The notes under the pieces are model-generated. The model did not search any database and was not told the origin of the DNA. It worked only from the letters and a program-made list of their open reading frames with translations. The position numbers and the translations under genes were made by a program. Source: Paenibacillus aceti (GTDB lineage: Bacteria; Bacillota; Bacilli; Paenibacillales; Paenibacillaceae). Taken from it: 64,000 bases of DNA. Shown here piece by piece: positions 19,526 to 61,849 of this stretch. Position 1 is the first letter of the stretch. Each line of letters opens with the position of its first letter. The stretch is from assembly GCF_003614185.1 (NCBI RefSeq), contig NZ_KZ987724.1, positions 1,016,771-1,080,770 on the forward strand, read 5' to 3'.

Positions 19526-19712
19526 TCTAACGAAACACCATATCGTTATTTTCAAGAAATCAGCACCTGCTCCAATCTAACGAAACACCATATCGTTATT
19601 GAGGTGAAAAACTATCATTTAACCTCTTTTTGACCTCAATAGCGATCCCCTGTTTCGTTAGATTTCCTAGTCCCCCTTTTTGCCACAAATAGCGCTCCCC
19701 AGTTTCGTTAAA
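19526..19712. repeat. Four-box intergenic repeat element, TAACGAAAC type (copy 1)
   Basis: Four 25-base boxes start at 19526 and 19576 (forward) and at 19638 and 19688 (reverse), so spacings are 50, 62 and 50. The first two boxes are identical (TCTAACGAAAC, five bases, ATCGTTATT). The last two read as their inverse with changes. Each box is itself a weak hairpin, TAACGA with TCGTTA. The whole element is an imperfect inverted repeat of 187 bp. It fills the gap between converging genes (GH4 gene and the WGR-like gene). The copy at 48367 has exactly the same spacing. Confidence 0.88.
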
Positions 19713-19753
19713 ATTTAGCGCGTTAGATTAAGCGTTAGAGAAGGCAGTTAGTG

Positions 19754-20848
19754 TTAAATAGCATACAGACTGATACAGCCGTAGTCTGAATACAATGCTA
19801 AATAATCTTCAGTAAAGACCAGCTTGCAGTTCTTCACGACATGTTCGGGTTTGAATTCGAGGATCCGCTGCCAAGACTCTGTATGATACAGTTCCACTTT
19901 TCCAAACCTGAATAGGGCCAGTAACGGCTTGGCAGGATGCACAGCAAAGCTACTGACCTGCTCTTTTCTCCATTCCGATCTTCTTGTTAGAGAGTTCATA
20001 TCATAGCATGCTAGCTCCCCTGAGCCGTACCGCTCTTGAGTGAATAAGTAGCGATCATCGGCTGAAAAATACATGGCAACGGTCATAGCACTGATTTCTT
20101 TGGCTATCGAATGTTCTATGCCAGTGTCGAGATCATAAATGACCATAGTATCAGGGTGAGTACAGTAGGCTATTCTTCGCCCGCTTCGCGCCAGCCCTCC
20201 GCATAGCTGACGGCTATAACCGTTGACCATTTCCGGCGTGGCCTCGGTCTGATAGAGGTGTTCCTTCGTCAACAGATCCATCACTATCAATCGGGCACCA
20301 TCGTACCAGAGCCCCCGGTTTCCCGACAGGTAGAGTATGCTATCACGTGTGAACGAGGTGTAGCTGTGAACGCCCCCATCCGCAGACAGGCCTGAAATTT
20401 GATGGCTATCGTCGATCAGAAGCTCACCCGCTTCCGGGCAATAAAACATATCATAGATCAAATGATTGCCCTCTAGCACCCAAATGAGCTGCTTCTGCCC
20501 ATGCTCGTCCAGATGATAGATTTCTTCCTTTTCAAATTGGCCAACCACATATCCTGCATAGAACTGATTGGTGCCGGGGACAGCAGCCAACGGCATGAAA
20601 CCGGTGTAACCGGAGCCGATATGGAGCTGAAACAACGGAGAGCCCGGCGCTGCTTCGGGATTTCTATAAATGAAGCCCTTTTTAAGCTTGCTCCACATCT
20701 CTTTCTCCGCGTATTTGGCGGCTTGCTGCGGATCGTCGAATAATTTCTCCCTAGGCTTGCCTCCGTTATTGGATCGGATGACGCGTTCCCCTTCACAGGT
20801 GATCTCCCAGGTTTTATCGTTGTCTGGATTTAGAAAGACTCTTCTCAT
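19754..20848 (-). CDS. WGR-domain-like protein with beta-propeller-like C-terminus
   Basis: A 364-residue protein. The first 60 residues look like a WGR domain (KTWEITCEGERVIRSNNGGK, then a Lys-rich KLKKGF end), a small nucleic-acid-associated fold found in PARPs and MolR-like proteins. The remaining 300 residues contain repeated strand patterns such as HLIYDMFYCPEAGELLIDD and MTVAMYFSADDRYLFTQ that suggest a WD40/YVTN-like propeller. Function is unknown. It lies next to, but on the opposite strand from, the putative RNA-repair genes. The window also holds a DUF4132 gene, a family often linked to WGR domains, but 24 kb away. Confidence 0.6.
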   Translation of the reverse strand: MRRVFLNPDNDKTWEITCEGERVIRSNNGGKPREKLFDDPQQAAKYAEKEMWSKLKKGFIYRNPEAAPGSPLFQLHIGSGYTGFMPLAAVPGTNQFYAGYVVGQFEKEEIYHLDEHGQKQLIWVLEGNHLIYDMFYCPEAGELLIDDSHQISGLSADGGVHSYTSFTRDSILYLSGNRGLWYDGARLIVMDLLTKEHLYQTEATPEMVNGYSRQLCGGLARSGRRIAYCTHPDTMVIYDLDTGIEHSIAKEISAMTVAMYFSADDRYLFTQERYGSGELACYDMNSLTRRSEWRKEQVSSFAVHPAKPLLALFRFGKVELYHTESWQRILEFKPEHVVKNCKLVFTEDYLALYSDYGCISLYAI

Positions 20849-21030
20849 AGGACGCCAATCCCCTTTTCATTTTAGATCCGTAAAATTATACCATGGAAAT
20901 AGGTCCTGGAAGGCGCTGGACAGGAAAATTCAGGTGAAAAGGCCGAGCCCGATGCGTCGATAGTCCTGTGTGTTTTGTAAAATGTATCCTTTATACTGGA
21001 ATAGTGCTGCCAGAAAGGAGGTGATATGCG

Positions 21031-21990
21031 ATGAGTGTGATTCATATGCTGGTCGGGATTCCGGGCAGCGGGAAAAGTCATTATGCCAAGGAATTGGGCA
21101 AACGGGAAAGAGCAGTGCTGGTAGCGACCGATTCCATTCGGGAAAGATTGTTCGGCAGCGAGTCGAAGCAGAAGAACACGTATTTGGTGTTTGATGAGGC
21201 TTTTGCGGAGATAGAGCAGGCACTTGGGGCGGACAGGAATGTGATCTTTGATGCCACGAATGTCAGCCGGGATCGGCGACTTAAGTTTTTGAAACGTTTC
21301 AGAGAAATCCCGGTTCAGTGTCACGTATTCGATACTCCTTATGAGGTAGCGAAGGCAAGAATCGAGGGGAGAAAGCGGCAGATCAGCGACAAGGTACTCA
21401 CCAAGTTTGCCAGAAATTTAGAATTCCCTGTTCTGGGTGAAGGGTTTCACGCTTTGCATCTGGTTCATGCTGCGGCTAAGACCGGCCTTGATCGCTCCAG
21501 ATTGGAACAACTGCTGGACATGCAGCCGGGGCATGATGAACTGTTTGCTTACTTGGCAAGCTCGCCTCATTTCCAGGTGATGCTGGGATATGATCAGGAG
21601 AACCCGCATCATTCCAGAACCCTATCCGAGCATACCTATGCCGTCCTGGATTATATCAATGTCTTCTATGAAGGCGAGAATTTGCTGGCGATGCAGCTTG
21701 CAGCCCTATTCCACGACGCGGGCAAACCGTTCTGCAAAGTATGGAAGGAGGCGCGCGGGTACTACTCGTATTACGGGCATGAGCATGTGTCGGCCATCAT
21801 AGCCTGCCATGTGCTGAAGGAGCTTGGCTATGAAGATGATTTTATTCTGCATGTCGTGAATTTGGTCAGCTTCCATATGGAGATTTTGCACGGCGGGGAT
21901 GCGGGAGCGTCGCAGATTTATCATCTGCTCGGCGAGGAACGGCTGGCGGAGCTGTATTTTTTTGCCGAGGCGGATTCCTTTGCTAAATGA
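21031..21990 (+). CDS. Polynucleotide kinase-like P-loop protein fused to an HD phosphohydrolase
   Basis: A 319-residue two-domain protein. Residues 1-160 form a P-loop kinase with GIPGSGKS (Lys15) and TDSIR (Asp34, Arg37). This matches the D-x-x-R spacing of T4 polynucleotide kinase. DATNVSRDRR follows. Residues 175-319 form an HD domain with SEHTY, FHDAGK (His-Asp near 228), GHEH and SFHM metal ligands. Such a protein could phosphorylate 5'-OH ends and remove 2',3' phosphates, that is, heal broken RNA ends. Runella HD-Pnk has the same domains in the opposite order. An AGGAGGTG site precedes the ATG. The RNA ligase gene follows 44 bases later. Confidence 0.82.
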   Translation: MSVIHMLVGIPGSGKSHYAKELGKRERAVLVATDSIRERLFGSESKQKNTYLVFDEAFAEIEQALGADRNVIFDATNVSRDRRLKFLKRFREIPVQCHVFDTPYEVAKARIEGRKRQISDKVLTKFARNLEFPVLGEGFHALHLVHAAAKTGLDRSRLEQLLDMQPGHDELFAYLASSPHFQVMLGYDQENPHHSRTLSEHTYAVLDYINVFYEGENLLAMQLAALFHDAGKPFCKVWKEARGYYSYYGHEHVSAIIACHVLKELGYEDDFILHVVNLVSFHMEILHGGDAGASQIYHLLGEERLAELYFFAEADSFAK

Positions 21991-22034
21991 GGAGGCTGTA
22001 TAGCATCAAGACAGAAAAGAGGTGAATCAAAACT

Positions 22035-22679
22035 ATGAAAATCAAATATCCGAGGACGATGCATCTGCCATGGTCGCGTGGGTATACCGATGATGACAGG
22101 ATTTTGCGGGATACCGATCATTTTACCGGTCAGGAAGTCGTGATTACCGAAAAAATGGACGGCGAAAACACCACGATGTACCCGGACTTCATTCATGCCC
22201 GATCCCTGGACAGCAAGGACCATCCTTCCCGGCATTATGTCAAAACGCTGCATGGTGGCATAAAGTACCTGATTCCGGAAGGATATCGGTTATGCGGTGA
22301 AAATGTGTACGCGAAGCATTCCCTGTATTATTCGGCGCTGCCAAGTTATTTCATGCTGTTCTCTGTGTGGAATGAGCAGAATGTTTGCCTGTCCTGGGAC
22401 GAGACGGTGGAATGGGCGGCACGGCTTCATTTATCGGCAGTTCCTGTGCTGTACCGGGGAATATGGAGCGAGGAAGCGGCGAAAGCGTGTTATACCCGGC
22501 AGTCTCGCTGTGGCGGAGAACAGGAAGGATACGTCGTCAGACTGGCTTCAGCTTTTGCCTATGAGGATTTCAAACGGTCCATGGCCAAATTCGTCCGTAC
22601 CAATCATGTCCAAACCGATGAGCACTGGCTCAGCAAACCGGTTGAACCGAACCTGCTTGCCGAGACAACGGCAGAGTAA
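22035..22679 (+). CDS. RNA ligase family protein
   Basis: A 214-residue nucleotidyltransferase of the RNA ligase family. The nucleophile motif I is EKMDGEN, with Lys40 as the expected AMP acceptor. Motif III-like LCGENVYAKHS, motif IV EGYVVR and motif V MAKFVR are in the right order. It is a minimal ligase with no extra C-terminal domain. An AGAGGTG ribosome site precedes ATG. Directly downstream of the kinase-HD gene, it could seal the ends that protein heals. The substrate (tRNA, other RNA or nicked duplex) is unknown. Confidence 0.85.
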   Translation: MKIKYPRTMHLPWSRGYTDDDRILRDTDHFTGQEVVITEKMDGENTTMYPDFIHARSLDSKDHPSRHYVKTLHGGIKYLIPEGYRLCGENVYAKHSLYYSALPSYFMLFSVWNEQNVCLSWDETVEWAARLHLSAVPVLYRGIWSEEAAKACYTRQSRCGGEQEGYVVRLASAFAYEDFKRSMAKFVRTNHVQTDEHWLSKPVEPNLLAETTAE

Positions 22680-22789
22680 GAGAGAGTAAAGGTGCAGAGT
22701 CGTCAATAAGCAGTATTTTGAAAAGAAAGAGGTGTTGATCATGTAATTCCGAGCAGAAGTACCTTTACAAGCTTTCTAACTACAAACGT

Positions 22790-22860
22790 TCTAACGAAAC
22801 TGGATATCACTAGGGGTTGAACTTGGTCCTGAGGCCATAGCGATCTGCAGTTTCGTTAGA
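22790..22860. repeat. Two-box fragment of the TAACGAAAC repeat
   Basis: A forward box at 22790-22814 and a reverse box at 22836-22860 carry the same TAACGAAAC / GTTTCGTTAGA ends as the larger elements, but only 46 bases apart. It looks like a shortened or decayed copy, and it lies between the RNA ligase and SUFU genes. Confidence 0.7.
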
Positions 22861-22898
22861 AAAATAAATTAGCCAATGAATACATAGGAGGAAAAATA

Positions 22899-23960
22899 AT
22901 GAGCGAAGAAGTAAATGCCCCCGGTTGGGATGCGATTGATCTGGAATTAGGTAAAATCTACGGGGAGCAGCAACCGAAGCATTATGGGACGATGATCCCT
23001 TATGCCCTGGGAGGGCCGGACCCGCTCGATGGGATTAGCGCTTATAAAAGTGAGACGCCGGTGCCGCATTGGCATTTTGTCACGTATGGATTCTCGGAAT
23101 TGTATGAGAAGGAATCCGAGAATGCCGAGCATAGCGGCTACGGGTTCGAGCTTACGTTCCGGCTGGTACGGAAAGAAGACGAGGAAGAGCCGCCAGCATG
23201 GGCGCTCAATCTGCTGCAAAATATGGGAAGATACGTGTTCGGCAGCGGCAATGTGTTCCGTTCCGGTGATTATTTGGATGCCAACGGCCCGATTTGTCTC
23301 GGCGCGGATACGCTTCTCACCGCCCTTGCTTTTACACACGACCCAGAGCTCCCGGCGATCGATACAACGAATGGTCATGTAGAATTTATTCAAATGGTCG
23401 GCATTACAGGCGATGAGCTTGAGGCGATGCAGACCTGGAATACCCTGGGTGTGCTTGAGGCGGGCCTGGCGCAGATCCCAGGGTATGTTACGGATTTATC
23501 GCGGGATTCCCTTCTGGAGGTTCCGGCGATTGCCGAGGCGGTTGAACGGGGCATGGAGCAGGAAGGCTCCAATACAGGCTTTTTGTTCGTGGATCAGCTA
23601 GGCTGGGAGCCCGGAAAGAAAGGATTGTTCAAAAAACAGCCGGATCGCGTAAAGCTTGGTGCAAAGCAGGCTGGAATTATCGGCAAGCTGCTGCGTGGGC
23701 GGATTTTAAAACAAAAAGACCTTACTCTGGTCAGTCAAGAGATCCGCGTTATATTTGAGCCAGGAGAAAGCGCCGGGTTTCATATGGAGGATCAGGAGGT
23801 CAGTATCCGTTTGAACCGAGAGGCTGTCACGGAGCTGAGTCAAAGGCTGGTCCCGCTGGAAAGCGAGTTCGGGCTAGCATCGCTGCCCGGGCTGTCCTTC
23901 CAAATCGTGAAGACGCATATTAAAGATCAAGAGGGCAACGTCGTCGAGACGATCGGTTAA
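22899..23960 (+). CDS. Suppressor-of-fused (SUFU) domain protein
   Basis: A 353-residue protein. Residues 20-190 are a SUFU domain (HWHFVTYGFSELY, HSGYGFELTFRL, FRSGDYLDANGP, WNTLGVLEAGL). The C-terminal 150 residues hold a separate alpha/beta region (EIRVIFEPGESAGFHMEDQ) not found in the shortest bacterial SUFU proteins. Bacterial SUFU proteins such as YqcF-like ones are often immunity proteins of toxin systems, but no toxin gene is adjacent here. A TAGGAGG site precedes the ATG. It may share transcription with the RNA-repair pair, although a repeat fragment lies between. Confidence 0.85.
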   Translation: MSEEVNAPGWDAIDLELGKIYGEQQPKHYGTMIPYALGGPDPLDGISAYKSETPVPHWHFVTYGFSELYEKESENAEHSGYGFELTFRLVRKEDEEEPPAWALNLLQNMGRYVFGSGNVFRSGDYLDANGPICLGADTLLTALAFTHDPELPAIDTTNGHVEFIQMVGITGDELEAMQTWNTLGVLEAGLAQIPGYVTDLSRDSLLEVPAIAEAVERGMEQEGSNTGFLFVDQLGWEPGKKGLFKKQPDRVKLGAKQAGIIGKLLRGRILKQKDLTLVSQEIRVIFEPGESAGFHMEDQEVSIRLNREAVTELSQRLVPLESEFGLASLPGLSFQIVKTHIKDQEGNVVETIG

Positions 23961-24006
23961 TAGGAGCAAGGGAGAAGGGGCAGAGGAAGATGACAGTGAA
24001 AGTTGC

Positions 24007-24120
24007 GTGACGGGGTGGGTGCAGGATGTCGGTTATCCGAATTGCCCATGCTGCGGTCGAAACATGCACTTTATCGGGCAGTTGGACTGGTCGGATTTGG
24101 AGAATTATATGTTTATTTAA
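24007..24120 (+). pseudogene. Remnant encoding a zinc-ribbon-like tail (DUF1963-like)
   Basis: An open stretch ends with VQDVGYPNCPCCGRNMHF followed by IGQLDWSDL and a stop. This resembles the C-terminal part of DUF1963/YwqG-like proteins (YPxCPxCGxxMxFIGQ). No ribosome site and no upstream domain are present, so it is probably a leftover of a deleted gene. A very small expressed protein starting at GTG 24007 or 24019 cannot be excluded. Confidence 0.45.
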
Positions 24121-24174
24121 CCGTATTTATTCGCGCAAGAGACAAACACGGACCGTCAGGACTCTCCCCCTGAT

Positions 24175-24359
24175 CTAGCGGTCAAAAATGTCCGTTAGAG
24201 CCTGAAAACAACAACAACTCTCCTCTAACGGACACTATTGACCCTTAGAAGCACAAAATGCCATTTTTCGCGGCTATTTTCCTTGTAATGGCCATAAATG
24301 TCCGTTACAAAGGCTGGAGTGCCACAGAATCAGCGCTAACGGACATTTATGGCCGTGTC
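24175..24359. repeat. Four-box intergenic repeat element, TAACGGACAT type
   Basis: Boxes of 25 bases start at 24175, 24224, 24285 and 24335, giving spacings 49, 61 and 50. The box core is TAACGGACATTTATGGCC or its inverse, different from the TAACGAAAC type, yet spaced the same way. Boxes are palindromic at their ends (CTAACGG with CCGCTAG). The element lies between the converging SUFU-side genes and iolR. Confidence 0.85.
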
Positions 24360-24408
24360 CAAATGATCCGACATGAACAGGGGGATGTTCCCATTTTTGG
24401 ACATGCAA

Positions 24409-24454
24409 AAGAGGCGTCTTCCAAGTCGGAAGATCGACTTGGAAGACGCCTCTT
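24409..24454 (-). terminator. Strong terminator of iolR
   Basis: A perfect 20-bp stem with a GAAGAT loop: the arms are 24409-24428 and 24435-24454. It begins 11 bases past the iolR stop and is followed by TTTTGC on the minus strand. It probably also stops transcripts arriving from the left. Confidence 0.85.
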
Positions 24455-24464
24455 GAATATTATT

Positions 24465-25220
24465 TTAAACCTTCAGCAGTTTGATCTCATGCTCCGCACA
24501 GTATTCCACATACTCTCTCGGCACATTGCCGGTTGTAACGAGCGCGGATACACCGTCTAGCGGCAGATAGGTCAGCAAGGTTGATTTGCCGAACTTGGAA
24601 TCATCGACGAGCAGGATGATTTCATTTGCCTTAGCGCAGATGGAATGTTTGATCTCGTATTCAAGCGGATTACTGTTGGTCAGCCCGCTCGCGATCGTTA
24701 CGCCCGTAGCTGCCATGAATGCCTTGTTAATATTGAAACGCTGGCTGTAGGAATCCCCATCCACATTCACGAATGAACGAGTATTGCCCTGATAGAGCGA
24801 ACCGACGACGAACAGCCGGATGTTCGGCATCTGTGTGCATACATGAATCACATCAAAGTTATTCGTAAAAACCGTGCAGGTAATGTTCGGGTCCAGGTAA
24901 CGCATAATTTGCGATGTGGTGGTGCCGGAATCAATAAAGATGATGTCATTAGGCTCGATCATGCTGCTGGCCAATTTTCCGATCGCTTTTTTCTGGTCAT
25001 GCTGCATCGTATCCCGTTGCTCAAAGGAGATCAGCGTATTATTCTTCTTGGCTCGAACTCCCCCATATACCTTCTCAATCGTACCCCGTTTGACCAATGC
25101 ATCGATATCCCGGCGAATCGTATTCACAGAAACTTTAAAGATGGAGCACAGGTCCTGAATCGTCACATGCTCCCGTTCTATAACTAACTGCTCTATATCT
25201 TCTAATCTCTGTATCTTCAT
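24465..25220 (-). CDS. iolR: DeoR-family repressor of the inositol operon
   Basis: A 251-residue DeoR/GlpR-type repressor, the same length as Bacillus subtilis IolR. It has an N-terminal winged helix-turn-helix (VTIQDLCSIFKVSVNTIRRD, then IDALVKRGTIEKVYGGVRA). The C-terminal sugar-phosphate sensor domain reads NDIIFIDSGTTTSQIMRYL and DDSKFG. AAAGGAG precedes the ATG. It is divergent from iolJ with 480 bases between. By analogy it binds the operator until a phosphorylated inositol catabolite releases it. Confidence 0.88.
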   Translation of the reverse strand: MKIQRLEDIEQLVIEREHVTIQDLCSIFKVSVNTIRRDIDALVKRGTIEKVYGGVRAKKNNTLISFEQRDTMQHDQKKAIGKLASSMIEPNDIIFIDSGTTTSQIMRYLDPNITCTVFTNNFDVIHVCTQMPNIRLFVVGSLYQGNTRSFVNVDGDSYSQRFNINKAFMAATGVTIASGLTNSNPLEYEIKHSICAKANEIILLVDDSKFGKSTLLTYLPLDGVSALVTTGNVPREYVEYCAEHEIKLLKV

Positions 25221-25286
25221 ACGATATTCTCCTTTAATTATACTTATCTAGTGATCTATTTTATCACAACCACTCATAAACTGATA

Positions 25287-25683: not shown

Positions 25684-25699
25684 AGGAGATGTGTAGACG

Positions 25700-33650: not shown

Positions 33651-33787
33651 TGTAACGGAAATGTAGATCCTTATTTGCTCTCAAAGGGGCTGAAAGTGGG
33701 AGGGAACTAAAGAATAAGGCCAGCTATTTCCGTTACATTTTTTAAATGGACGAAATTGTGGAAATAGCGGCCCTCAGTTCCGTTAGA
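33651..33787. repeat. Three-box intergenic repeat element, TAACGGAAATG type
   Basis: Boxes of 25 bases start at 33651 (forward), 33713 and 33763 (reverse), so spacings are 62 and 50. This matches the last three boxes of the four-box elements; the position where the first box should be (33601) is occupied by the iolD terminator. The ends read GTAACGGAAAT / TTCCGTTACA or TTCCGTTAGA. It lies between the converging iolD and DMT-transporter genes. Confidence 0.82.
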
Positions 33788-33796: not shown

Positions 33797-34243
33797 TTAC
33801 TTCTTGATCAGCACAATGCCGGCAATCAGGAGAAGGGCGCCCAGAATATGGCGCAGCGAGATTGGAGTGACATCGGAGCCGAATAGGCCAAAGTGGTCGA
33901 TGATCATCGCCATGATGATCTGTCCGCTCAGCAGGATGGAGATGAATGTCGCATAGCCGATGCGTACCGGCGCTACGATCATTGTCGTGACGATGACTGC
34001 GCTGAGTACACCGCCGCCCCACATCCACCAGTTGCCCGCCGACGTGTGCGGTACCAGCATCGGAATTTGCTTGCGGAAGAGAAAGCCGATGAAGATCATG
34101 ATAGCCGCGCCGATCAGATTGCTGATCCCTCCGGATAGATAAGGGGAGCCTACATTTCTTCGCAGCTCAGCATTAAATCCGCTCTGCAGCGGGAAGAAGA
34201 CACCGGCTATCACAGTGAGTAAGATGAAGAATATCGTTTCCAT
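33797..34243 (-). CDS. DMT-superfamily membrane protein (DUF606/YdcZ type)
   Basis: A 148-residue inner-membrane protein with four to five hydrophobic helices. The half-transporter signature reads PLQSGFNAELRRNVGSPYLSG near the start and ALLLIAGIVLIKK at the end. AGGAGACGACT precedes the ATG. Such small proteins usually dimerise to form a transporter; the substrate is unknown. It sits downstream of the iolG-like gene, separated by a hairpin. Confidence 0.82.
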   Translation of the reverse strand: METIFFILLTVIAGVFFPLQSGFNAELRRNVGSPYLSGGISNLIGAAIMIFIGFLFRKQIPMLVPHTSAGNWWMWGGGVLSAVIVTTMIVAPVRIGYATFISILLSGQIIMAMIIDHFGLFGSDVTPISLRHILGALLLIAGIVLIKK

Positions 34244-34271
34244 AGTCGTCTCCTATACATAGCAAAGTAAG

Positions 34272-34296
34272 AAGCCAAGCGAGATACGCTTGGCTT
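34272..34296 (-). terminator. Terminator of the leftward iolG-like gene
   Basis: AAGCCAAGCG pairs with CGCTTGGCTT around a 5-base loop. On the minus strand CTTACTTT follows. It lies 45 bases past the stop of the oxidoreductase gene. Confidence 0.7.
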
Positions 34297-34340
34297 TTAT
34301 TATAAAGCAGTCATGCCATTATTGTTTAGATACTAGCTGA

Positions 34341-35366
34341 TCAAAATTCATTATTGACGCGAACTGGCTTGCCTGTCCGCAGTGATTCAAGCCCAGCAGC
34401 GGCGGCGCGTTGCGCCAGGATAACGTCTTCGATCGAGCAGACAACTGGAGTGCCGCTTTTAACGGATTGAATGAAGCTGTCCATTTCGGAGATATAAGCT
34501 TCTTCATAGCGCTCCATGAAGATAGGCAGAGGATTTTTCAGTTGAGCATTGTCTTTATTGTAATACTCGACTGCTGATTTGTTTACGTTTTCGACTTTGA
34601 GCATGCCTTCGGAGCCGAATACTTCAACACGCACATCATAGCCATATACCGCTTGGCGGCTATTATCGATTAAACCGAACGTGCCGTTCTCGAATTCAAG
34701 AACCAGGGCCAAGGTATCGATATCGTCGACCTCTTTCAGTTTCGGTTCGATCAGGACACCGCCTTTAGCGTACACTTCTTTAATATTGCTGCCCATCATG
34801 TAGCGGGCCATATCGAAGTCATACGTGGTGAAGTCGACGAGCAAGCCACCAATGCGTTTGATCAGATCGATAGAAATAACGAACGGATCGCGGGAGGTAA
34901 TCTTAACGACTTGTGGATCACCGATTTTTCCTTCTTGAATTTGCTCATAGGCAGCACGATACTGTTTGTCCATACGGCGGTTGAAGCCAATTTGGAACAC
35001 GACGTCCGCTTGCTTTACCAGATTGTAAATCTTCATGCTTTCCGTCTCGTCGTTTACATTCATGTCTAATGGTTTTTCGCAGAAAATATGAATCTTCTTC
35101 GGATGCTGCAAGATGTATGCGCACATTTCTGTATGAAGATCTGTTGGCGATGCCACGATAATCGCTTCGATGTCCTCTTTATCAAGCATCTCTTTATAAT
35201 CTTTGTATACCGCCTTGAAGCCAAGTTCTTTGGCCACGGCCAGTTGTCCGTCATCAAGTGCACAAGCTGCCAGCGCTTCGACTTGACCTGCATTAGCTGC
35301 GATATGCTTGGCATGCTCCATTCCCATACGTCCTAATCCGATAATGCCCATCTTCAACTTGCTCAT
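34341..35366 (-). CDS. iolG: Gfo/Idh/MocA oxidoreductase, IolG-like, catalytic His replaced by Tyr
   Basis: A 341-residue NAD-dependent dehydrogenase with Rossmann motif GIIGLGRMGMEHAKHI and substrate/cofactor motif CEKPLDM (the Lys of the catalytic triad). In inositol dehydrogenases the triad is completed by an Asp-x-x-x-His pair. Here the site reads DFTTYD, with Tyr182 (codon on the minus strand of 34821-34823) where the close paralog at 41048 has His (DFTMHD). The start at 35366 follows GGAGGG. It faces away from the rest of the cluster and has its own promoter. It could be impaired, altered in specificity, or regulatory. Confidence 0.85.
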   Translation of the reverse strand: MSKLKMGIIGLGRMGMEHAKHIAANAGQVEALAACALDDGQLAVAKELGFKAVYKDYKEMLDKEDIEAIIVASPTDLHTEMCAYILQHPKKIHIFCEKPLDMNVNDETESMKIYNLVKQADVVFQIGFNRRMDKQYRAAYEQIQEGKIGDPQVVKITSRDPFVISIDLIKRIGGLLVDFTTYDFDMARYMMGSNIKEVYAKGGVLIEPKLKEVDDIDTLALVLEFENGTFGLIDNSRQAVYGYDVRVEVFGSEGMLKVENVNKSAVEYYNKDNAQLKNPLPIFMERYEEAYISEMDSFIQSVKSGTPVVCSIEDVILAQRAAAAGLESLRTGKPVRVNNEF

Positions 35367-42220: not shown

Positions 42221-42408
42221 AAAAAAGATGCAAAAATGCATCCTTTTCTCCGATTTAAGTGCTGTAATGGGAAAAGCCTGCAGAAGTGCAGGCTTTTGCA
42301 AAGTTTTATGCTCACAACTCACTTTTCCGCCTAAAAAGATGCATTTTTGCAGGAATTTTCTTGAATCTCGCGTAATCTCCGAAAAAAGATGCACTTTTGC
42401 AGGCTTTT
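42221..42408. repeat. Four-box intergenic repeat element, TGCA-N4-TGCA type (copy 1)
   Basis: Palindromic cores TGCA-N4-TGCA lie at 42229-42240, 42279-42290, 42340-42351 and 42390-42401, so spacings are 50, 61 and 50. The second box is a perfect hairpin: AAAAGCCTGCA, loop GAAG, TGCAGGCTTTT. Box sequence is unrelated to the TAACG types but spacing is the same. The element lies downstream of the dehydrogenase terminator and overlaps the 3' end of a small minus-strand reading frame. Confidence 0.87.
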
Positions 42409-48366: not shown

Positions 48367-48553
48367 TCTAACGAAACTGGAGAACGCTATTTGAGTCAAT
48401 TTACGGCCTTTTGAAATCTAACGAAACACCATATCGTTATTCGAGCGAAATAGTACCCGATCAGCCCATTTTCAGCTCAATAGCGATCCCCAGTTTCGTT
48501 AGATCTTTCAAAGGCCTTTTTTTGCCCAAATAGCGTTACCACGTTTCGTTAGC
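48367..48553. repeat. Four-box intergenic repeat element, TAACGAAAC type (copy 2)
   Basis: Boxes of 25 bases start at 48367 and 48417 (forward) and 48479 and 48529 (reverse): spacings 50, 62, 50, exactly as in the copy at 19526. Box 2 is identical to boxes 1 and 2 of that copy. The 25-base segments between boxes 1-2 and 3-4 are also partly complementary (around GGCCTTTTGAAA), so the entire 187 bp could form one long hairpin. It lies between converging genes (DUF4132 and serine hydrolase). Confidence 0.9.
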
Positions 48554-51050: not shown

Positions 51051-51240
51051 CGAAAACTGCAAATATGCAGGCTTTTCACCTCTAACCCACCTGTCTGTAG
51101 CAAATTCCTGCAAATGTGCAGGCTTTTCCATCCTTTTCTGCGAAAGTGGGCTGATAGATAGAAAAAAGATGCATATTCGCAGGAATTTACGTTTTCGGGG
51201 CGAGGTAGTCGCCCAATTCCTGCAAATGTGCAGGCTTTTC
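51051..51240. repeat. Four-box intergenic repeat element, TGCA-N4-TGCA type (copy 2)
   Basis: Cores lie at 51058-51069, 51109-51120, 51170-51181 and 51221-51232: spacings 51, 61 and 51. Typical boxes read ATTCCTGCAAATGTGCAGG, then CTTTT. It lies between the asparaginase terminator and the alkaline phosphatase gene, both leftward, so this copy is not between converging genes. Long open frames across it on both strands are by-products of the repeat. Confidence 0.87.
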
Positions 51241-53902: not shown

Positions 53903-53917
53903 AACGCCTATTAAAAT

Positions 53918-53982
53918 AGGCCAACCAGAAATCTCTGGCTGACCTAACCTCATAATAATTCGAAAGCCTGCAAATCTGCAGG
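53918..53982. terminator. Convergent terminator region with one TGCA-type box
   Basis: An imperfect hairpin at 53918-53945 (AGGCCAACCAGA with TCTGGCTGACCT) is followed by a single repeat box, CCTGCA-AATC-TGCAGG at 53967-53982. It lies between the converging citrate-synthase-like and class I aldolase genes. The box is probably a lone relic of the four-box family. Confidence 0.55.
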
Positions 53983-54030
53983 AATTTCCTCAGAACATTC
54001 TGATGTATGTGTATGATCGAATAAAATACT

Positions 54031-56375: not shown

Positions 56376-56388
56376 GGATGGATGCACT

Positions 56389-56598
56389 ATGGCTATTATT
56401 TTAAGACTGGATCGAGTGATGGCTGACCGGAAAATGTCTCTGAACGAGCTCGCAGACAAAGTAGGGATCTCGAATGTCAATCTTTCAAATATCAAGACAG
56501 GCAAGGTAAGTGCGATTCGATTCTCGACGCTGGATGCGATTTGTAAAGTGCTCGATTGCCAGCCTGGCGACATATTGGAGTATAAAAAGGAGGATTAG
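56389..56598 (+). CDS. Small XRE/Cro-type helix-turn-helix regulator
   Basis: A 69-residue DNA-binding protein: RLDRVMADRKMSLNELADKV, then GISNVNLSNIKTGK and FSTLDAICKVLDCQPGDIL. It belongs to the YozG-like group that accompanies DUF2975 proteins. The start is ATG 56389 behind AAGGATGG; the upstream ATG at 56362 lies inside DUF2975. It ends 3 bases before the CPBP gene, so the three form an operon it may autoregulate. Confidence 0.9.
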   Translation: MAIILRLDRVMADRKMSLNELADKVGISNVNLSNIKTGKVSAIRFSTLDAICKVLDCQPGDILEYKKED

Positions 56599-56601
56599 AA
56601 T

Positions 56602-57210
56602 ATGACTATTAACCTGTTAGTATCATCGCTGCTCCAGCTTGTTCTCGTCATTGCTGTAGCGTTTGTTTGCTGGCTTATTTTTGCTAGGAAGAGGCAGCCC
56701 TTCTTATCCTGGGTCGGATTCATCAAGCCAGCTATAAGGAAGAGGAAGCTTTTTAGCGGCTTATTTATAGCAGGATTTATTTTGTTTTCTGTGGTGGGCT
56801 GGCTTGTTTTTGTTTATTTTACCGATCCTTCTGAGGTGGCGACCTCGCAGTTCTATGGGGTAGGTGTGTCAGGCATAGGCGGGGCCTTATTATATTCATT
56901 TGTACAGACAAGTTGCTCAGAGGAGATATTATTCAGAGGCTTAATCGGAAAAAGATGTATCTCTGCATTTGGCTTCGCAATCGGAAATTCGATTCAATCG
57001 ATATTGTTCGGCGGCTTGCATGGAGTGATGTTCTTGGCGAGTACAGGAGTGGTTAACGCTCTAATCATAACGGTATTTACGGCCCTCATCGGCTGGGGGA
57101 TGGGATATATGAATGAGAAATTATCGGGCGGCTCTATATTGCCAAGCTGGATGCTGCATGGTCTCGCGAATCTGTTCTCGACGATGATTATGATGTTCAA
57201 GCTATTCTAG
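56602..57210 (+). CDS. CPBP-family intramembrane protease-like protein
   Basis: A 202-residue membrane protein with about six helices. Motif 1 is SEEILFRGLIG (Glu-Glu near 107 and Arg near 112) and motif 2 contains FGGLHGVMF (His near 139). These residues form the active site in CAAX-protease homologs. An AAAAGGAGG site precedes the ATG. In Gram-positive bacteria such proteins often have roles in bacteriocin immunity or processing; the substrate here is unknown. Confidence 0.88.
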   Translation: MTINLLVSSLLQLVLVIAVAFVCWLIFARKRQPFLSWVGFIKPAIRKRKLFSGLFIAGFILFSVVGWLVFVYFTDPSEVATSQFYGVGVSGIGGALLYSFVQTSCSEEILFRGLIGKRCISAFGFAIGNSIQSILFGGLHGVMFLASTGVVNALIITVFTALIGWGMGYMNEKLSGGSILPSWMLHGLANLFSTMIMMFKLF

Positions 57211-57299
57211 GCGGGGATCAGCCTTGCATGTATTTCCAGCAATTTAATCATAATAGGCAGGAGGCTGTAGAAGATCAAAGACAAAGCGAGTGATGATAC

Positions 57300-58298
57300 T
57301 TGAAGTGGACAGCCATAGCGCAGCTCCTGCTCATGCTGCTGAATAATGACGGGGAACAGGATGACAGCTTGCTCACTATAACCCAAGAGGGGAAAACGGT
57401 ATCCACGGTGAACAGGGAGGCTTATGCTCTTCCCGTATTTCCGCTATTGGACATGGCTAAGTATAATCGATGGGTTAATGAATTGGAGCGGAAAACTTAC
57501 AGGCCAGCGATGAATGCACGGATTCAGCATAACGGTCAAATTAGGGCCGGGCAAAATGGCAGCAAACTGGATCGCCGGGAGCTGTTGAAGGCTTATTATG
57601 CGTATCTCTACAGTCAAGGGGCGGCTTCGCTTGAAGTACCCACATATCCGGTATACCCCAAGGTAGATACGGAGCTGCTCGCTTCACTGCGCTCCAGGCA
57701 GATCGGATATTATGTCACTTATTTCAATTCCAGTAATAAGGCTCGTACTACGAATATCGCCCTGGCAGCGGAAGCGATTGACGGAACCGTTGTTTTCCCG
57801 GGGGAGACCTTCTCCTTCAATCAAGTGGTGGGAATCCGCACACCGGGCAAGGGATATAAGAAGGCTGCTGTCATTGTTCGGGGGGAACTGTCAGAAGGTG
57901 TAGGGGGCGGAATCTGTCAGGTATCCTCGACCTTATTCAATGCCGTGGATCGGGCAGGTTTAAGCATTGTACAGCGATATTCACATAGCCGTAACGTTGC
58001 CTATGTTCCTCCCGGGCGGGATGCGACGGTTAGCTGGGGTGGGCCGGATTTTGCCTTCGATAATATGTATAACCAGCCGGTTCTGATTCGGGCGTTTGCG
58101 GGAAGTGGCAGTATCTCTGTGTCCATTTTCTCATCTGATGTGATCGAATATACGCCAAGAAGGGTACCAAGCATGTCGAATCAGGTGCCGGAAGAGATTC
58201 ATGATCCAACTCCAGAGGCCGCACATGGGAAATCTGGAAAAGAAGGCAATTACCCCTCAGGGTCGTCTTTACCTCCGAAAATACCTCAAGAAGAATAG
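57300..58298 (+). CDS. VanW family protein
   Basis: A 332-residue protein. The N-terminal 20 residues are hydrophobic (MKWTAIAQLLLMLLNN), which suggests a signal or anchor. Residues 135-270 form the VanW domain: YYVTYFNSSNKARTTNIALA, FPGETFSFNQVVG, GGGICQVSSTLFNAV, YSHSRNVAYVPPGRDATV. A Pro/Gly-rich tail follows. TTG is the start; the ribosome site is weak. VanW proteins appear in cell-wall-related contexts but have no proven activity. No vancomycin-resistance genes are nearby. Confidence 0.87.
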   Translation: MKWTAIAQLLLMLLNNDGEQDDSLLTITQEGKTVSTVNREAYALPVFPLLDMAKYNRWVNELERKTYRPAMNARIQHNGQIRAGQNGSKLDRRELLKAYYAYLYSQGAASLEVPTYPVYPKVDTELLASLRSRQIGYYVTYFNSSNKARTTNIALAAEAIDGTVVFPGETFSFNQVVGIRTPGKGYKKAAVIVRGELSEGVGGGICQVSSTLFNAVDRAGLSIVQRYSHSRNVAYVPPGRDATVSWGGPDFAFDNMYNQPVLIRAFAGSGSISVSIFSSDVIEYTPRRVPSMSNQVPEEIHDPTPEAAHGKSGKEGNYPSGSSLPPKIPQEE

Positions 58299-58421
58299 GT
58301 CCGAGCGCGCTTGTCACTCCTTATATATTCATTCTACAATATAGGTAGATTTTTCTTGGAGATGGGTGGCATGTAACTTGGAGGTCGTGAAACAGAGGCA
58401 GTCATGGAAGGAGAGAGGGAA

Positions 58422-59090
58422 ATGGATAAGCAGGAGTATGCCCAATATCTACTCGGCTTGATGGATGAGGAAGCAGATGCGGAAGAAATCGATGAAGATA
58501 TGTTCTACGGGTATTTCCAAATGTATATGCCAAGCGGGGAAGGCGTAGAGCGAACCTTCAGCCCATTGCCGGATGGGGAGGCTTACCAGCAGCGGATCGT
58601 CCAAATCTATGAGATGCTTGATCCGAAGGAGTTTGCGGGGAATACGGTTCCTGGATATTTTAATGGTAAATCTGGGGCTGCACCCGAGGATCTGATACAG
58701 GCGTATGGCAGCAAGCATATCGCTGAACTGAAGCAGCTGCTGGAACAGCATGCGGATGAGGAGTATACTGCTGAAGCGATTCACTATTTAGGTATGATTG
58801 ACGAGGTAGTAGTGCTGCCGCCTGGTAAACTTGAGCAGTATCGAAAACAGTACGAACCCCTGGTGCATGACACACTGTTCGAGCTAATCAGCGAACATTC
58901 GGAGGGTGATGAGCCTGTTGAGATTTTAAGTGAGGCTTTCTATTCGATTGCCTGTGACTATTGGATTTCCTATTATCTGCAGTGGCATCGATATGGACTT
59001 GGCGGAGACCCATTGGCCTCCTATTTTGAGTTGTATCGGCTTGGGTATTCGGCTACATTCGCCGGAAATAAGCTGTATCTTGGAGCATAA
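58422..59090 (+). CDS. Hypothetical acidic protein
   Basis: A 222-residue soluble, very acidic protein (MDKQEYAQYLLGLMDEEADA, then EEIDEDMFYGYFQMYM), with no signal peptide. I do not recognise the family. The acidic and aromatic pattern resembles SMI1/KNR4-like or other immunity-type proteins, but the match is weak. The start is ATG 58422 after GGAGAGAGGG; ATG 58404 is upstream of that site. A stretch of about 250 bases follows with no gene visible except the palindrome before the next gene. Confidence 0.6.
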   Translation: MDKQEYAQYLLGLMDEEADAEEIDEDMFYGYFQMYMPSGEGVERTFSPLPDGEAYQQRIVQIYEMLDPKEFAGNTVPGYFNGKSGAAPEDLIQAYGSKHIAELKQLLEQHADEEYTAEAIHYLGMIDEVVVLPPGKLEQYRKQYEPLVHDTLFELISEHSEGDEPVEILSEAFYSIACDYWISYYLQWHRYGLGGDPLASYFELYRLGYSATFAGNKLYLGA

Positions 59091-59292
59091 GCGGCGGATT
59101 GTGGAGTTTCTGACAGTTGCCGTGTTTCTACATATCAGCCCTCAGTCAGTGGAGTTGGCATACTCTACTAGCCGGGGGCTATTGTCATATAAAGGCCATC
59201 ATTTAATTTCAAATATTGAGTTCTGTTAAGCCAGGATCATCCGTATATTTAACAGGGAATGGACAGCCGGCTGAAATCCATTCGCATCGACT

Positions 59293-59316
59293 TAAAGTTA
59301 TAGCGCTTTAACTTTA
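59293..59316. promoter_or_regulatory. 24-base near-palindrome before the phosphatase-like gene
   Basis: TAAAGTTA and TAACTTTA flank TAGCGCTT, a nearly perfect dyad centred on AGCGCT, 22 bases before the start codon. It lies where a repressor could act. It does not match the repeated TTAACA pattern of PhoP boxes, so I cannot name its regulator. Confidence 0.45.
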
Positions 59317-59338
59317 TGGGAGACGGAAGGAGATGTGT

Positions 59339-59776
59339 ATGAAGCTATTTTCGGGGAAAATGGGAAAACGGGGGCTGTCGCTGCTGCTTGCCTTTATGGT
59401 GCTTTTGCTTCAGCTGCAGTTCCAGTTTCAGGGCAGGGTATTTGCAGAAGACACGGCGACAACGGTACCTTCAGCGGAATGGAGATACACGGAGACCCCG
59501 ACGGATCTGGAGGTTTATTCGGCGACAAATGGGGTCTACAAGAATGCCTCGAATTTTCAGCCTGAAGTGATCCCTTCGGTTGAGGCTACTGCTGAGGAGA
59601 AGGTGCTGCTAGCGGAATGGGTCTTCGCCAATTCAGGCAGTAGCGGTGAATTTCCTGCCACAGGCGGTATTCTGAAGGCATTGTCCAGCTTCCAGAATGT
59701 CGGCGGCTATTACGAGTATTCTGACAGCAGCCAGCATTTAAGATACATTGTATATTCGTTGGGTGGTCCGTTCTAA
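59339..59776 (+). CDS. N-terminal part of a frameshifted purple-acid-phosphatase-like exported protein
   Basis: A 145-residue frame with a signal peptide (KRGLSLLLAFMVLLLQLQFQ, cleavage near FAED). A domain with SAEWRYTETPTDLEVY and SGEFPATGGILKALSSFQN follows. It starts at ATG 59339 after AAGGAG. It stops in SLGGPF, while the next frame continues with SNTNTKGSQGIGSTGS. Removing one T at 59771-59772 joins them as GGPSNTNTK, so the split is a +1 frameshift. Confidence 0.7.
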   Translation: MKLFSGKMGKRGLSLLLAFMVLLLQLQFQFQGRVFAEDTATTVPSAEWRYTETPTDLEVYSATNGVYKNASNFQPEVIPSVEATAEEKVLLAEWVFANSGSSGEFPATGGILKALSSFQNVGGYYEYSDSSQHLRYIVYSLGGPF

Positions 59777-61499
59777 TACGAATACGAAGGGATCGCAAGG
59801 GATTGGTAGCACGGGCTCCAGTCTGATCAAGGATATCCGTCTGTCAGGTACGGTTCAGGACGGTGAAGTTCCGGGTGATACGCCGACCGTACCGAAGTTG
59901 ATCAATATGACGCTGATTGGCGATACCAAAACGAGCCGTTCCTTCGCCTGGTATACTGACACAACGGCAGCATCCGTGGTGCAGGTGGTCGAGGCTGCAA
60001 GGGCTTCAGAAGACAGCTTTCCCGATAGTGAAGCGCTGACCTTCCAAGGCAGCACCGAAGAGATTCAGACATATGTGACGAAGGCGGATCGGAACGCCAA
60101 GAAGAAACAGAAATTTTACAGCCATAAAGTGACGGCTACCGGCTTATCCCCAGGAACGACATACAAATATCGGGTGGGCAGCGGATTAGCGAATAGCTGG
60201 AGTGGAGTAGGAAGCTTCACGACGAATGCACAAGGCAACGAGCCGTTTCATTTCATCGCGGGTTCGGATTCGCAGGCCTCCAGCAAGTCGGGCTTTGAGC
60301 CATGGGCGGATACGTTCAAGAAGGCGGTACAGACGGTTGGCGATCCGAAGTTCCTGATCAACGCCGGGGATCTGGTCGATAATGGCGATCTGGAGGAGCA
60401 GTGGCAGTGGATGCTGGGTCTGCCGCAAGAGCAACTGCTGAATGTGCCGATTGTCCCGGTTGTCGGCGGTCATGAAGTGCAGGATTATGATGGAGATGAG
60501 ACAACGCCGAACTCCAACTTCTACTATCATTTCAATCTGCCGAAGCAGGTCGTGGCTAATACGCATGATGGATCGGTGTACTCTTTTGATTATGGGAATG
60601 CCCTGTTCCTGATCTTCAATTCACAGTATGCTGGAAAGCTGGCCAGTAATGGCAAGGACATCAAGAAGCAGGATCAGCAGTTCGCAGATCAAGTGGAGTG
60701 GATGAAATACATGGTCGCGAAGAGCGATGCTAAGTGGAAATTTGTAACCTTCCATAAAGGTCCGTATTCAGCAGGGGATAATGCGGGGGAATGGGAGGAC
60801 GACCGAGTTCAATTTTATAAAAAAGTGCTCATCCCCGCCTTTGATGAGATGGGCATCGATATGGTATTCGAGGCACATGATCATATGTATATGAGATCGT
60901 ACCAGATGCTGAACGACAAGGTGATCCCTCCCGGCCAAATTACGGTGGATGCGCAAGGGAATGCCGTGAACCCGAAGGGGACGGTCTACCTGATGTCCAA
61001 CGCTTTTGGCGATAAGTTCTATAATAAGTATCCGGGCTATGATGATTATTTTGCCGCGATTGACACCCAGCCGAATAAGAAGATGTTCACCGACGTGTCT
61101 GTATCCGCGGATGTTCTGCAGATCAAGGCTTACACCGCAGCCAAAAAAGATGAGAAATCGGGCAGCAACGGCGTCAAGCTCTACGATCAATATGGGATCA
61201 AGCGGACGGATACCAAGCCAGCTAAGGTTGAAAATGCTAAAGCCCAGGTCAGCGGGGGCAAGGTAGTCATCTCCTGGAAGGCACCTGCATCGAGCAGCGA
61301 ACCGATCAGGGGCTTCCGCATCTATGAGAAGAACGGTAAGATCAAAACCAACTGGAATGTATATGTCGGGGCCGAATCTGGAAAGAAGGACTATAGCTAC
61401 ACAGTAAACAACATCAGTACCTCTGAAAAATATCAGTTTGTGATCCGAGCTGTCGGAAGCAGAATCAATTCAGATCCGGTCGAAGTTAGTGTGAATTAA
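59748..61499 (+). CDS. Purple acid phosphatase-like metallophosphoesterase, C-terminal part
   Basis: About 570 residues in the frame taking over near 59770. A fibronectin-like phosphatase N-domain (FYSHKVTATGLSPGTTYKYR) leads to the metallophosphoesterase core: GSDSQ, NAGDLVDNGDLEEQW, VVGGHEV, FHKGPYS and AHDHMYMRSYQ. The C-terminal 90 residues are a second FN3-like module (GKVVISWKAPASSSEPIRGF). Enzymes of this type release phosphate outside the cell. As the signal peptide is on the other side of the frameshift, the protein is probably not exported unless the shift is an error. Confidence 0.8.
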   Translation: MYIRWVVRSNTNTKGSQGIGSTGSSLIKDIRLSGTVQDGEVPGDTPTVPKLINMTLIGDTKTSRSFAWYTDTTAASVVQVVEAARASEDSFPDSEALTFQGSTEEIQTYVTKADRNAKKKQKFYSHKVTATGLSPGTTYKYRVGSGLANSWSGVGSFTTNAQGNEPFHFIAGSDSQASSKSGFEPWADTFKKAVQTVGDPKFLINAGDLVDNGDLEEQWQWMLGLPQEQLLNVPIVPVVGGHEVQDYDGDETTPNSNFYYHFNLPKQVVANTHDGSVYSFDYGNALFLIFNSQYAGKLASNGKDIKKQDQQFADQVEWMKYMVAKSDAKWKFVTFHKGPYSAGDNAGEWEDDRVQFYKKVLIPAFDEMGIDMVFEAHDHMYMRSYQMLNDKVIPPGQITVDAQGNAVNPKGTVYLMSNAFGDKFYNKYPGYDDYFAAIDTQPNKKMFTDVSVSADVLQIKAYTAAKKDEKSGSNGVKLYDQYGIKRTDTKPAKVENAKAQVSGGKVVISWKAPASSSEPIRGFRIYEKNGKIKTNWNVYVGAESGKKDYSYTVNNISTSEKYQFVIRAVGSRINSDPVEVSVN

Positions 61500-61508
61500 C
61501 AATTAAGC

Positions 61509-61547
61509 AGCCTTGGTTCGGTGTTCAAGTGAACCAAGGCTATTTTA
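61509..61547 (+). terminator. Terminator of the phosphatase-like gene
   Basis: An 11-bp stem, AGCCTTGGTTC with GAACCAAGGCT, is followed by ATTTTAT. It lies 10 bases after the stop. Confidence 0.85.
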
Positions 61548-61548
61548 T

Positions 61549-61668
61549 CTATTCCTTGTGCTCGTGGATGCGGATGAATATCACATTAGGGCTGACGAGG
61601 AGTCTCTCTCTGACTGGCTCCTAGCGGGCAGAAGATTAACTGGAAATTCGCTTGCCTTCGGCCTTTTA
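61549..61668 (-). pseudogene. Remnant of a second DUF11-protein C-terminus
   Basis: On the minus strand the last codons read NVIFIRIHEHKE then stop, almost the same as NVVFIRIHEHEE at the end of the DUF11 gene 350 bases away. Upstream, in a shifted frame, KRPKANFQLIFCPLGASQ aligns with KRKVSNTAQVSFRPQGANQ of that gene. It is a decayed duplicate of about 120 bases and indicates an ancestral tandem copy or a recombination scar. Confidence 0.75.
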
Positions 61669-61674
61669 TATAAC

Positions 61675-61849
61675 TGCTAAAATGCATCTATTCCTAGGAA
61701 AATATCATGGGACCGGAGGAATAGATGCGAATATACAATTATTTTCTTAATTAAGCCTCTTTTGAACGAGAACCGATCCCAATAGTTGTAGAAATGCACT
61801 TATCTACGTAGTAGAGCGGCTAAAGGAGGAGAATAGATGTATATTCGCA
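61675..61849. repeat. Four-box intergenic repeat element, degenerate TGCA type
   Basis: Cores lie at 61675 (TGCT-AAAA-TGCA), 61726 (TGCG-AATA-TACA), 61787 (TGTA-GAAA-TGCA) and 61838 (TGTA-TATT-CGCA): spacings 51, 61 and 51, the same as in the copy at 51058. Boxes are flanked by AATAG or TTAT stretches. The sequence has drifted far from the other copies, yet the geometry is kept. It lies between converging genes. The following 100 bases hold nothing else I can support. Confidence 0.75.

Follow-up and report, generated by a model that had tools for sequence, protein, structure and literature searches.

The 64,000-nucleotide stretch of the Paenibacillus aceti genome considered here (hereafter the window; RefSeq assembly GCF_003614185.1, contig NZ_KZ987724.1, positions 1,016,771 to 1,080,770 of the forward strand) carries a dispersed set of intergenic elements built from short palindromic boxes; coordinates are in the numbering of the window unless another locus is named. 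A complete element is ~186 bp long and consists of four dyads of ~24 bp in the order forward-forward-inverted-inverted, the starts of which are 50-51, 60-62 and 50-51 bp apart. The first-pass annotation of this DNA listed seven loci with palindromic boxes at distances close to 50, 61-62 and 50 bp; on reading the loci and tabulating their repeats, six proved to be complete elements, while the one listed at 33651 has three boxes only, at the same spacing. Element 1, of type A (TAACGAAAC...TCGTTATT), occupies 19527..19711, with box starts at 19527, 19577, 19638 and 19688 (50/61/50; dyad distances 50/62/50). Element 2, of type B (TAACGGACA-N4-TGTCCGTTA), lies at 24175..24359 (starts 24175, 24225, 24285 and 24336; 50/60/51). 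The incomplete element 3, of the TAACGGAAATG type, spans 33652..33786 with normally spaced boxes at 33652, 33713 and 33763; box 1 is missing, and the sequence at its expected place is not box-like (score 71 in the four-box scan described below). Two elements are of type C (AAWNCC-TGCA-N4-TGCA-GGNWTT), namely element 4 at 42223..42407 (starts 42223, 42273, 42334 and 42384; 50/61/50) and element 6 at 51052..51238 (starts 51052, 51103, 51164 and 51215; 51/61/51). Element 5, again of type A, is found at 48368..48552 (starts 48368, 48418, 48479 and 48529; 50/61/50), and element 7, of type D (AATAGTTGC-N5-TACAACTATT), at 61669..61855 (starts 61669, 61720, 61781 and 61832; 51/61/51). No strand is assigned to any feature of the window described here.

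Geometry and box families

The geometry was recovered by a scan that takes no account of which sequence the boxes have, in which every position was scored for a set of four 24-bp boxes that resemble one another and run forward-forward-reverse-reverse. The 464-kb sample consisted of 20 stretches of 20 kb, taken at even intervals from the same genome, together with the window, itself chosen because of its elements. At spacings of 50-51/60-62/50-51 the scan returned 24 sets with scores of 90-116, six in the window and 18 in the other 400 kb, and the next score below these was 71. Seven control geometries gave top scores of 71-76 and no complete element in the same 464 kb. Scores of 107 and 85 were reached by two geometries that resemble the true one, (50,66) and (60,50), respectively; these probably echo the same loci by virtue of the dyad symmetry. 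Direct-repeat autocorrelation of the sample, in which the median count was 2, peaked at distances of 50 (23) and 51 (20), with 111 (15) and 112 (11) also high; the other high distances were mostly multiples of three, as expected from coding repeats. In a matrix scan that was blind to spacing and covered 604 kb, one 20-kb stretch being omitted, neighbouring A-type boxes were separated by 50 (25), 62 (13), 61, 46 and 73 bp (1 each), and C-type boxes by 51 (19), 61 (16), 50 (9), 112 and 113 bp (1 each), the matrices having been trained on geometry-selected elements. Similarly, when 2.27 Mb of loci were scanned widely, with outer spacings of 30-80 and middle spacings of 26-120 allowed, 312 unique sets were found, with a left spacing of 50/51 in 261, a right spacing of 50/51 in 263 and a middle spacing of 60-62 in 234, many of the loci having been fetched with patterns in which some of the spacing was preset; a block-shuffled control gave 0 matches in 0.55 Mb. 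The exceptions in the wide scan were tandem or coding repeats, arrays resembling clustered regularly interspaced short palindromic repeats (CRISPR), the same elements read in a shifted frame, and genuine variants (for example 51/72/51 and 51/51/51). The excess at 50, 61-62 and 112 bp that had been anticipated on first inspection was thus found in the autocorrelation and in the agnostic, spacing-blind and wide scans alike. A histogram of perfect-dyad distances under strict settings was too sparse to use.

Start-to-start spacings of 57-65, obtained early on, vary with the choice of box frame and were later replaced by distances between dyad centres. An early collection of 280 sets includes some coding or tandem repeats (for example loci L174, L130 and L136); the counts given per family select by box motif. 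The inversion at the centre of the array was seen in 41 of 45 four-box clusters; a CRISPR array, which is expected to consist of direct repeats in one orientation separated by non-repeated spacers, was rejected on this ground. Extrapolation from 24 elements in 464 kb gives ~290 complete elements per genome (186-431), but since the window was picked for its elements the fairer basis is the 18 in the 400 kb outside it, which corresponds to ~250.

Own-genome boxes are of type A (TAACGAAAC...TCGTTATT), B (TAACGGACA...TGTCCGTTA), C (TGCA-N4-TGCA within AAWNCC...GGNWTT), D and E. The view that the box types bear no resemblance to one another holds for the TGCA types, which stand apart, but not for TAACGAAAC, TAACGGACA and TAACGGAAATG, which share an outer TAACG (TAACG...CGTTA) with many types elsewhere, followed in other genomes by varying inner bases (GAAC, GACA, AATC, AACT, GTTG and others). 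The types are therefore in part one superfamily, with the TGCA types separate. Within type A, 33 of 42 elements are spaced exactly 50/62/50, the other nine being off by 1-2 bp in one spacing, and in 33 aligned copies (of the 42) the boxes have a mean identity of 83-92% and the spacers of 56-64%. Copies of types A and C alike have their boxes in common and their spacers much less so. Type B is distinct in that 36 further copies are 83-92% identical to element 2 (40 of 56 candidates scored), and the aligned copies sit inside a ~400-bp unit resembling a miniature inverted-repeat transposable element (MITE), with GGGCTGTC...GACAGCCCC inverted ends (24050-24460 in the window; loci L062-L090). In the window this unit has lost its left inverted end, and the right end is now a near-perfect hairpin (GGCGTCTTCCAAGTCGGAAGATCGACTTGGAAGACGCC). 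Family B is therefore also a copy family, so that descent and selection both play a part in the elements.

A variant spaced 51/72/51, of the box family AATAGCGGCC...GGCGCTATT, is represented by five elements (loci L165, L175, L207 and L220, which are P. faecis records, and L237) and has one extra helical turn in the middle. Dyad arrays at ~51 bp occur in two other genomes, one with eight boxes (L133, ~1189-1560) and one with five (L135, 1494-1724, first step 53). Type-A and type-C elements may also share a gene gap, with facing box centres 73 bp apart in the own genome (at -40717 relative to the window) and 52 bp apart in locus L092 (3549-3970). Palindromic repeats of the sequence CACTCCTTGCACAGGAGTG, at 65-69-bp steps, resemble own-genome CRISPR arrays (L414, ~16430-17230; L415, ~5355-5960; L054, ~2060-2400).

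Spacer phase, gene position and turnover

When elements are aligned on their centre, GC content swings with a ~10-bp period over the whole ~186 bp and is flat beyond +-95 bp (types A and C in the own genome, type C in other genomes). With the boxes masked, the spacers alone retained phase coherence at 10.15 bp, with R values of 0.98 (39 type A), 0.98 (30 B), 0.98 (38 C) and 0.92 (13 D/E) in the own genome and 0.87 (118 C) and 0.91 (13 non-C) in other genomes, although the near-identical copies of B, and in part those of A, are not independent in this test. The mean phase lay no more than 12 degrees from 180 in all six groups, and the flanks gave R values of 0.04-0.21. A check set was drawn from loci that were fetched later and had no part in finding the signal; it contained 64 TAACG elements, 61 of them not of the own type-A kind and 60 with flanks. 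In these 60 elements R was 0.91, versus 0.16 in flanks, the spacer spectrum peaked at 10.05, and all but two (L421 and L437) were within 60 degrees of 180. The three spacers taken singly, with wider masks, gave R values of 0.85, 0.87 and 0.83 in 61 elements (flanks 0.05-0.12; shuffled 0.10-0.13). The mean spacer identity between TAACG elements of different loci is 39% (best of two orientations, 1140 equal-length pairs). A summed roll vector was maximal at a 10.1-bp repeat (68 versus 30 in flanks and 26 in shuffled sequence; n=245), its excess being small at 10.6 bp (33 versus 27) and absent at 10.8-11.4 bp. Since the spacers hold a common ~10.1-bp phase, distances of 50-51, 60-62 and 50-51 bp amount to 5, 6 and 5 helical turns. 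The proposal that the spacing itself is selected is thus supported, spacers that are 56-64% (type A) or 39% (TAACG loci) identical having lengths within 1-2 bp.

Positions relative to genes were derived from a simple codon-model caller trained on the own genome, which was also used on the other species. The 24 elements of the own-genome sample occupy 11 convergent, 12 tandem and 1 divergent gaps, and none lies in an open reading frame (ORF); 142 elements in other genomes were placed in 50 convergent, 65 tandem and 4 divergent gaps, the other 23 being at the end of a locus (20) or in overlap with a called ORF (3). An element was present in 10 of 35 convergent gene pairs and in 11 of 333 others (Fisher p 2.8e-6, in a sample that includes the window), and the density of elements per kb of other intergenic DNA was 1.83 in convergent, 0.23 in tandem and 0.11 in divergent gaps. 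In tandem gaps, elements were closer to the 3' end of the upstream gene in 34 of 50 own-genome and 46 of 65 other-genome cases. The GC skew of the window is ~0 between 48001 and 56000, compared with 0.07-0.15 in the other seven 8-kb stretches.

The distribution of the elements was traced with two patterns. The TGCA pattern, which covers two and a half boxes, matched 31 of 148 genomes of the same family (control pattern 0) and none of 397 other genomes in a sample of the phylum; the own genome has 61 matches, of which one element may account for two, one on each strand. A named scan with this pattern matched at least 105 stretches, and 80 of 80 records among the matches listed were Paenibacillaceae. 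The four-box TAACG pattern was found in 71 of the 148 same-family genomes (15 of 19 genera) and in 98 of 296 genomes of the order, the family included, with six other families represented and 104 copies in one genome. Outside the family it matched 1 of 272 genomes in a sample of the class. Reversed-pattern controls were 0 in every listed genome of both scans. The sole outside-family genome in the class sample to match, G788 (loci L478 and L480), has 13 copies, two of which were read and share the common phase; the element class may be older than the order, or may have been transferred.

Comparison with relatives reveals both persistence and turnover. In two relatives, with ~80% identity over aligned DNA, the gene that precedes element 5 is also followed by type-A elements. 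In all there are seven such copies, any of which may be the true orthologue; against these, boxes 1-3 of element 5 are 76-100% identical and spacers 1 and 3 62-76%, while the middle spacer has 44-54% identity in the six copies of equal length and a length of 41 bp in six and 40 in the seventh. Two relatives lack element 6 at the corresponding place and have there what, by eye, is a terminator-like hairpin. A broken type-A remnant at 22789..22860 consists of one forward and one inverted box with centres 46 bp apart; at its site relatives carry whole elements, one in genome G545 and a tandem array of four in G540. An own-genome copy at -63940 relative to the window is without the fourth box, which its G545 counterpart keeps. 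Elements are thus subject to decay, and remnants and single boxes occur as well; a lone type-C box outside any array lies at 53963..53986, between the 3' ends of convergent ORFs. Tandem type-A elements were seen as four whole elements at ~200-bp steps (G540, loci L388-L391, joined stretch 34037-34636) and as three at ~417-bp steps (L404, ~6300-7300); elements multiply locally as well. The dominant box family differs between species. For types A, C and D, the empty sites read have intergenic DNA that is too diverged for a clean insertion boundary to be drawn, and they showed no target duplication; none of these three types was seen to have terminal inverted repeats outside its boxes. Element 5, the sole query used, had no match in plasmid and phage records; a two-box pattern matched 113 stretches in viral contigs, which is probably chance given the size of the data. 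Elements that persist keep their spacing and phase and, on the whole, their boxes.

Candidate proteins and known systems

Several proteins were considered as binders or drivers of the elements. The Myb-like RsfA, considered in view of the YAACNG-like half-site, was rejected as a multi-copy binder, there being one copy in the genome. RemA-like proteins were found by profile search in 148 of 148 genomes of the family, with or without elements; being universal, their distribution is uninformative, and alone they cannot explain the differing box code. IS200-like Y1 transposases (PF01797) occur at 14 places in the own genome (L256-L269), all with one score and a 157-aa frame and with no divergent members, and probably reflect a recent burst; a repeat-associated Y1 transposase was rejected as driver, these copies not being one per box family. 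For RemA, which forms rings of 8 (and 16), wrapping of DNA has been proposed, and the stretches it protects are 7 bp long, AT-rich and spaced in 10-bp steps; LrpC is described as four dimers with a proposed nucleosome-like binding (PMC8481266). By arithmetic, 16 turns of 10.15 bp make 162-163 bp, the distance between the outer dyads, which would fit a double octamer ring; we offer this as a lead only. The RemA target described in that source is upstream of a promoter (PMC8481266), unlike the elements described here, which lie mostly behind genes.

The repetitive extragenic palindromic (REP) sequences of Escherichia coli and their bacterial interspersed mosaic elements (BIMEs) are dispersed intergenic palindromic units in alternating orientation, located downstream of genes and mostly between tandem or convergent ones (PMC3733652). 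The elements resemble these systems (BIME-2, GTAG/CGTC REPs) as many dispersed palindromic units of alternating orientation in tandem and convergent gaps. They differ in that the Y1 search found no family-specific REP-associated tyrosine transposase (RAYT), the dyads are mostly not hairpin-like, and the units form a fixed composite of 5, 6 and 5 turns. With MITEs they share the form of short dispersed elements, and type B is carried within such a unit, whereas types A, C and D have no noted terminal inverted repeat and no target duplication at the sites read. Nucleosome-positioning DNA has an alternation of AT and GC near 10.1-10.2 bp, in phase. The elements share this phased alternation, but they are bacterial and have sequence-specific dyads and fixed boundaries. 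No description of such elements was found in the literature searched, which included work on REP, MITE and gyrase and in which most subscription journals are absent. A 2025 REP survey makes no mention of Paenibacillus in its text (PMC12306157), and an unsupervised spaced-motif search reports other motifs (PMC5217627).

A probable wrapped DNA site and its rivals

We consider that the elements are probably DNA sites wrapped by a putative dyad-binding protein. This reading is favoured by the geometry, the phase, the conservation that does without sequence and the position relative to genes, from which we infer a protein, its wrapping, a handedness and a function. The putative protein would occupy the four ~24-bp dyads, which at distances of 5, 6 and 5 turns face the same side of the helix, and the spacers would be selected not for their letters but for anisotropic bending, with A/T facing inward and G/C outward every ~10.1 bp, such that the whole ~186 bp wraps or coils as one unit. 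The period, being below 10.5, suggests that the coil may be left-handed and nucleosome-like. Elements behind genes, above all those between convergent genes, could then buffer topology or transcription, by absorbing supercoils or by halting polymerases between transcription units that collide. A bolder version, possible though doubtful, is an order-wide class of nucleosome-like positioning sites with a dedicated protein core, in which 16 turns (about two 81-bp gyres) form a left-handed coil at gene ends, the dyad code evolves fast and the spacers keep little but helical phase. Where the first-pass annotation had left a choice between a protein array, a folded RNA and DNA topology, the phase of the spacers favours a protein array on bent DNA, while complementarity within boxes, not being raised in most groups, speaks against a folded RNA.

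It could be argued that the elements are tandem hairpins of 3' untranslated regions that serve as bidirectional terminators or stabilize mRNA. The boxes are dyads behind genes, some type-C boxes resemble A-stem-T hairpins, and in an RNAalifold analysis of 33 type-A copies the strand with C-rich centres folds at -22, with boxes 1-4 and 2-3 paired; the other strand reached -4.6 versus -0.4 for column shuffles, which were made on that strand only. A hairpin should, however, hold its halves complementary. At variable positions, half-site matching in boxes minus that across boxes was -0.043 +- 0.012 in 38 own-genome and -0.021 +- 0.009 in 118 other type-C elements, the ATTCC type was positive in 0 of 23, and types C and D alike were lower in-box than cross-box; mutual information between half-sites was no higher within a box than between boxes. 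In-box complementarity is thus not raised in most groups, and folded RNA is disfavoured. The top covarying type-A columns are not aligned as a helix and seem to reflect subfamilies. Type-A box centres keep one strand G-rich, fully coherently in 27 of 39 elements, and would-be hairpin partners (boxes 1-4 and 2-3) are for this reason less alike within than between elements; no relation between this polarity and the direction of genes was evident in 26 elements, which were compared without a formal test. Type-A boxes are dyads with A+T-rich ends and no T run, and an intrinsic terminator, which would require a G+C-rich hairpin followed by a T run in all copies, was rejected. Relatives that lack element 6 carry a terminator-like hairpin in its place, Rfam covariance models at gathering score had 0 matches in the window, and spacing to +-1 bp with a helical phase has no evident reason in an RNA, which makes this explanation very improbable. 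A plain copy family that simply inherited its spacing is scarcely credible. The 36 further B copies are what it predicts, and the original verdict of 'not a simple copy family' needs qualifying for family B, which is also a copy family, within its MITE-like unit; it stands for the other families, whose spacers have diverged far with length and phase kept, and inheritance is refuted as the sole explanation.

Selfish non-autonomous mobile elements, in which the dyads are transposase sites, the phased spacers aid the folding of a transpososome and the gene-end position reflects tolerance, would account for presence and absence at the same gene gaps in relatives, for local and tandem copies such as the four at ~200-bp steps, for dominant families that differ between species, and for the amplification of family B within a unit with inverted ends. 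We nevertheless regard this as unlikely. The middle distance varies no more than the outer distances do, which is not the pattern of deletion derivatives of transposons; the empty sites read showed no clean boundary or target duplication; no gene-bearing longer version with the same ends was noticed in the cluster list, a non-systematic reading of 624 kb of the own genome and 384 kb of two relatives; and the 14 Y1 transposases, the sole transposase family searched, have identical score and frame and are not one per family. The most similar known signal is the gyrase motif of E. coli, which spans 130 bp with phased ~10-bp G/C variation, the gyrase sites being enriched behind transcription units as well as in BIME-2 (PMC6379681); gyrase capture is treated in a preprint (PMC12393610). 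If the elements were a Gram-positive counterpart of BIME-2, gyrase would wrap the phased arms and remove positive supercoils behind or between genes, consistent with symmetric phased G/C variation behind transcription units. The published motif, however, has a period of 10.75 bp and two 47-bp arms around a 36-bp centre (PMC6379681), whereas the elements hold ~10.1 bp over ~186 bp, unbroken through the centre, with no roll excess at 10.8-11.4 bp; they have sequence-specific dyads, and dyad sequences that are species-specific are not expected of gyrase sites. This reading is therefore quite improbable. Intrinsic DNA curvature could serve to pin the tips of plectonemes, or the elements could be sites for a general protein such as HU, in either case without a dedicated protein. 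This reading would explain the phased composition but leaves unexplained the conserved, family-specific dyads and their usual count of four, and has little chance of being correct.

The wrapped-site reading has to accommodate a number of observations that weigh against it. Placement behind genes could be mere tolerance, and the gain and loss of elements between species at the same gene gaps fits a selfish element too. Box 4 of element 5 is just 62-76% identical to its relatives, no better than spacers 1 and 3. In type A the whole-length single-element power is 1.32, compared with 0.82 in flanks, and the spacer-only spectrum peaks at 11.90, not 10.1. Half-site matching shows no difference in type A (-0.001, 39 elements), is slightly raised in a seven-element AATAAGTGCA subset (+0.028 +- 0.014), and the five-box array in L135 consists of near-perfect palindromes with matching outer changes. 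Neither RsfA nor the RemA-like proteins, the candidates searched for, account for the differences in box sequence. Motifs with a period of 10-11 bp have been described as being under selection without imparting bending (PMC7537859), and the wrapping by LrpC is cited as right-handed (PMC8481266), opposite to the handedness suggested here.

If the proposed reading is correct, the genomes of this order contain many wrapping sites that are positioned and resemble nucleosomes, each of which can be read from sequence alone, and the spacers of these sites constitute a natural experiment in which nearly everything except helical phase has been randomised. Two questions would thereby become testable, namely how bacterial chromosomes deal with supercoils between convergent genes and which proteins wrap DNA at fixed places. 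More generally, the elements would indicate that dispersed repeats can keep their geometry and bending through the turnover of their sequence.

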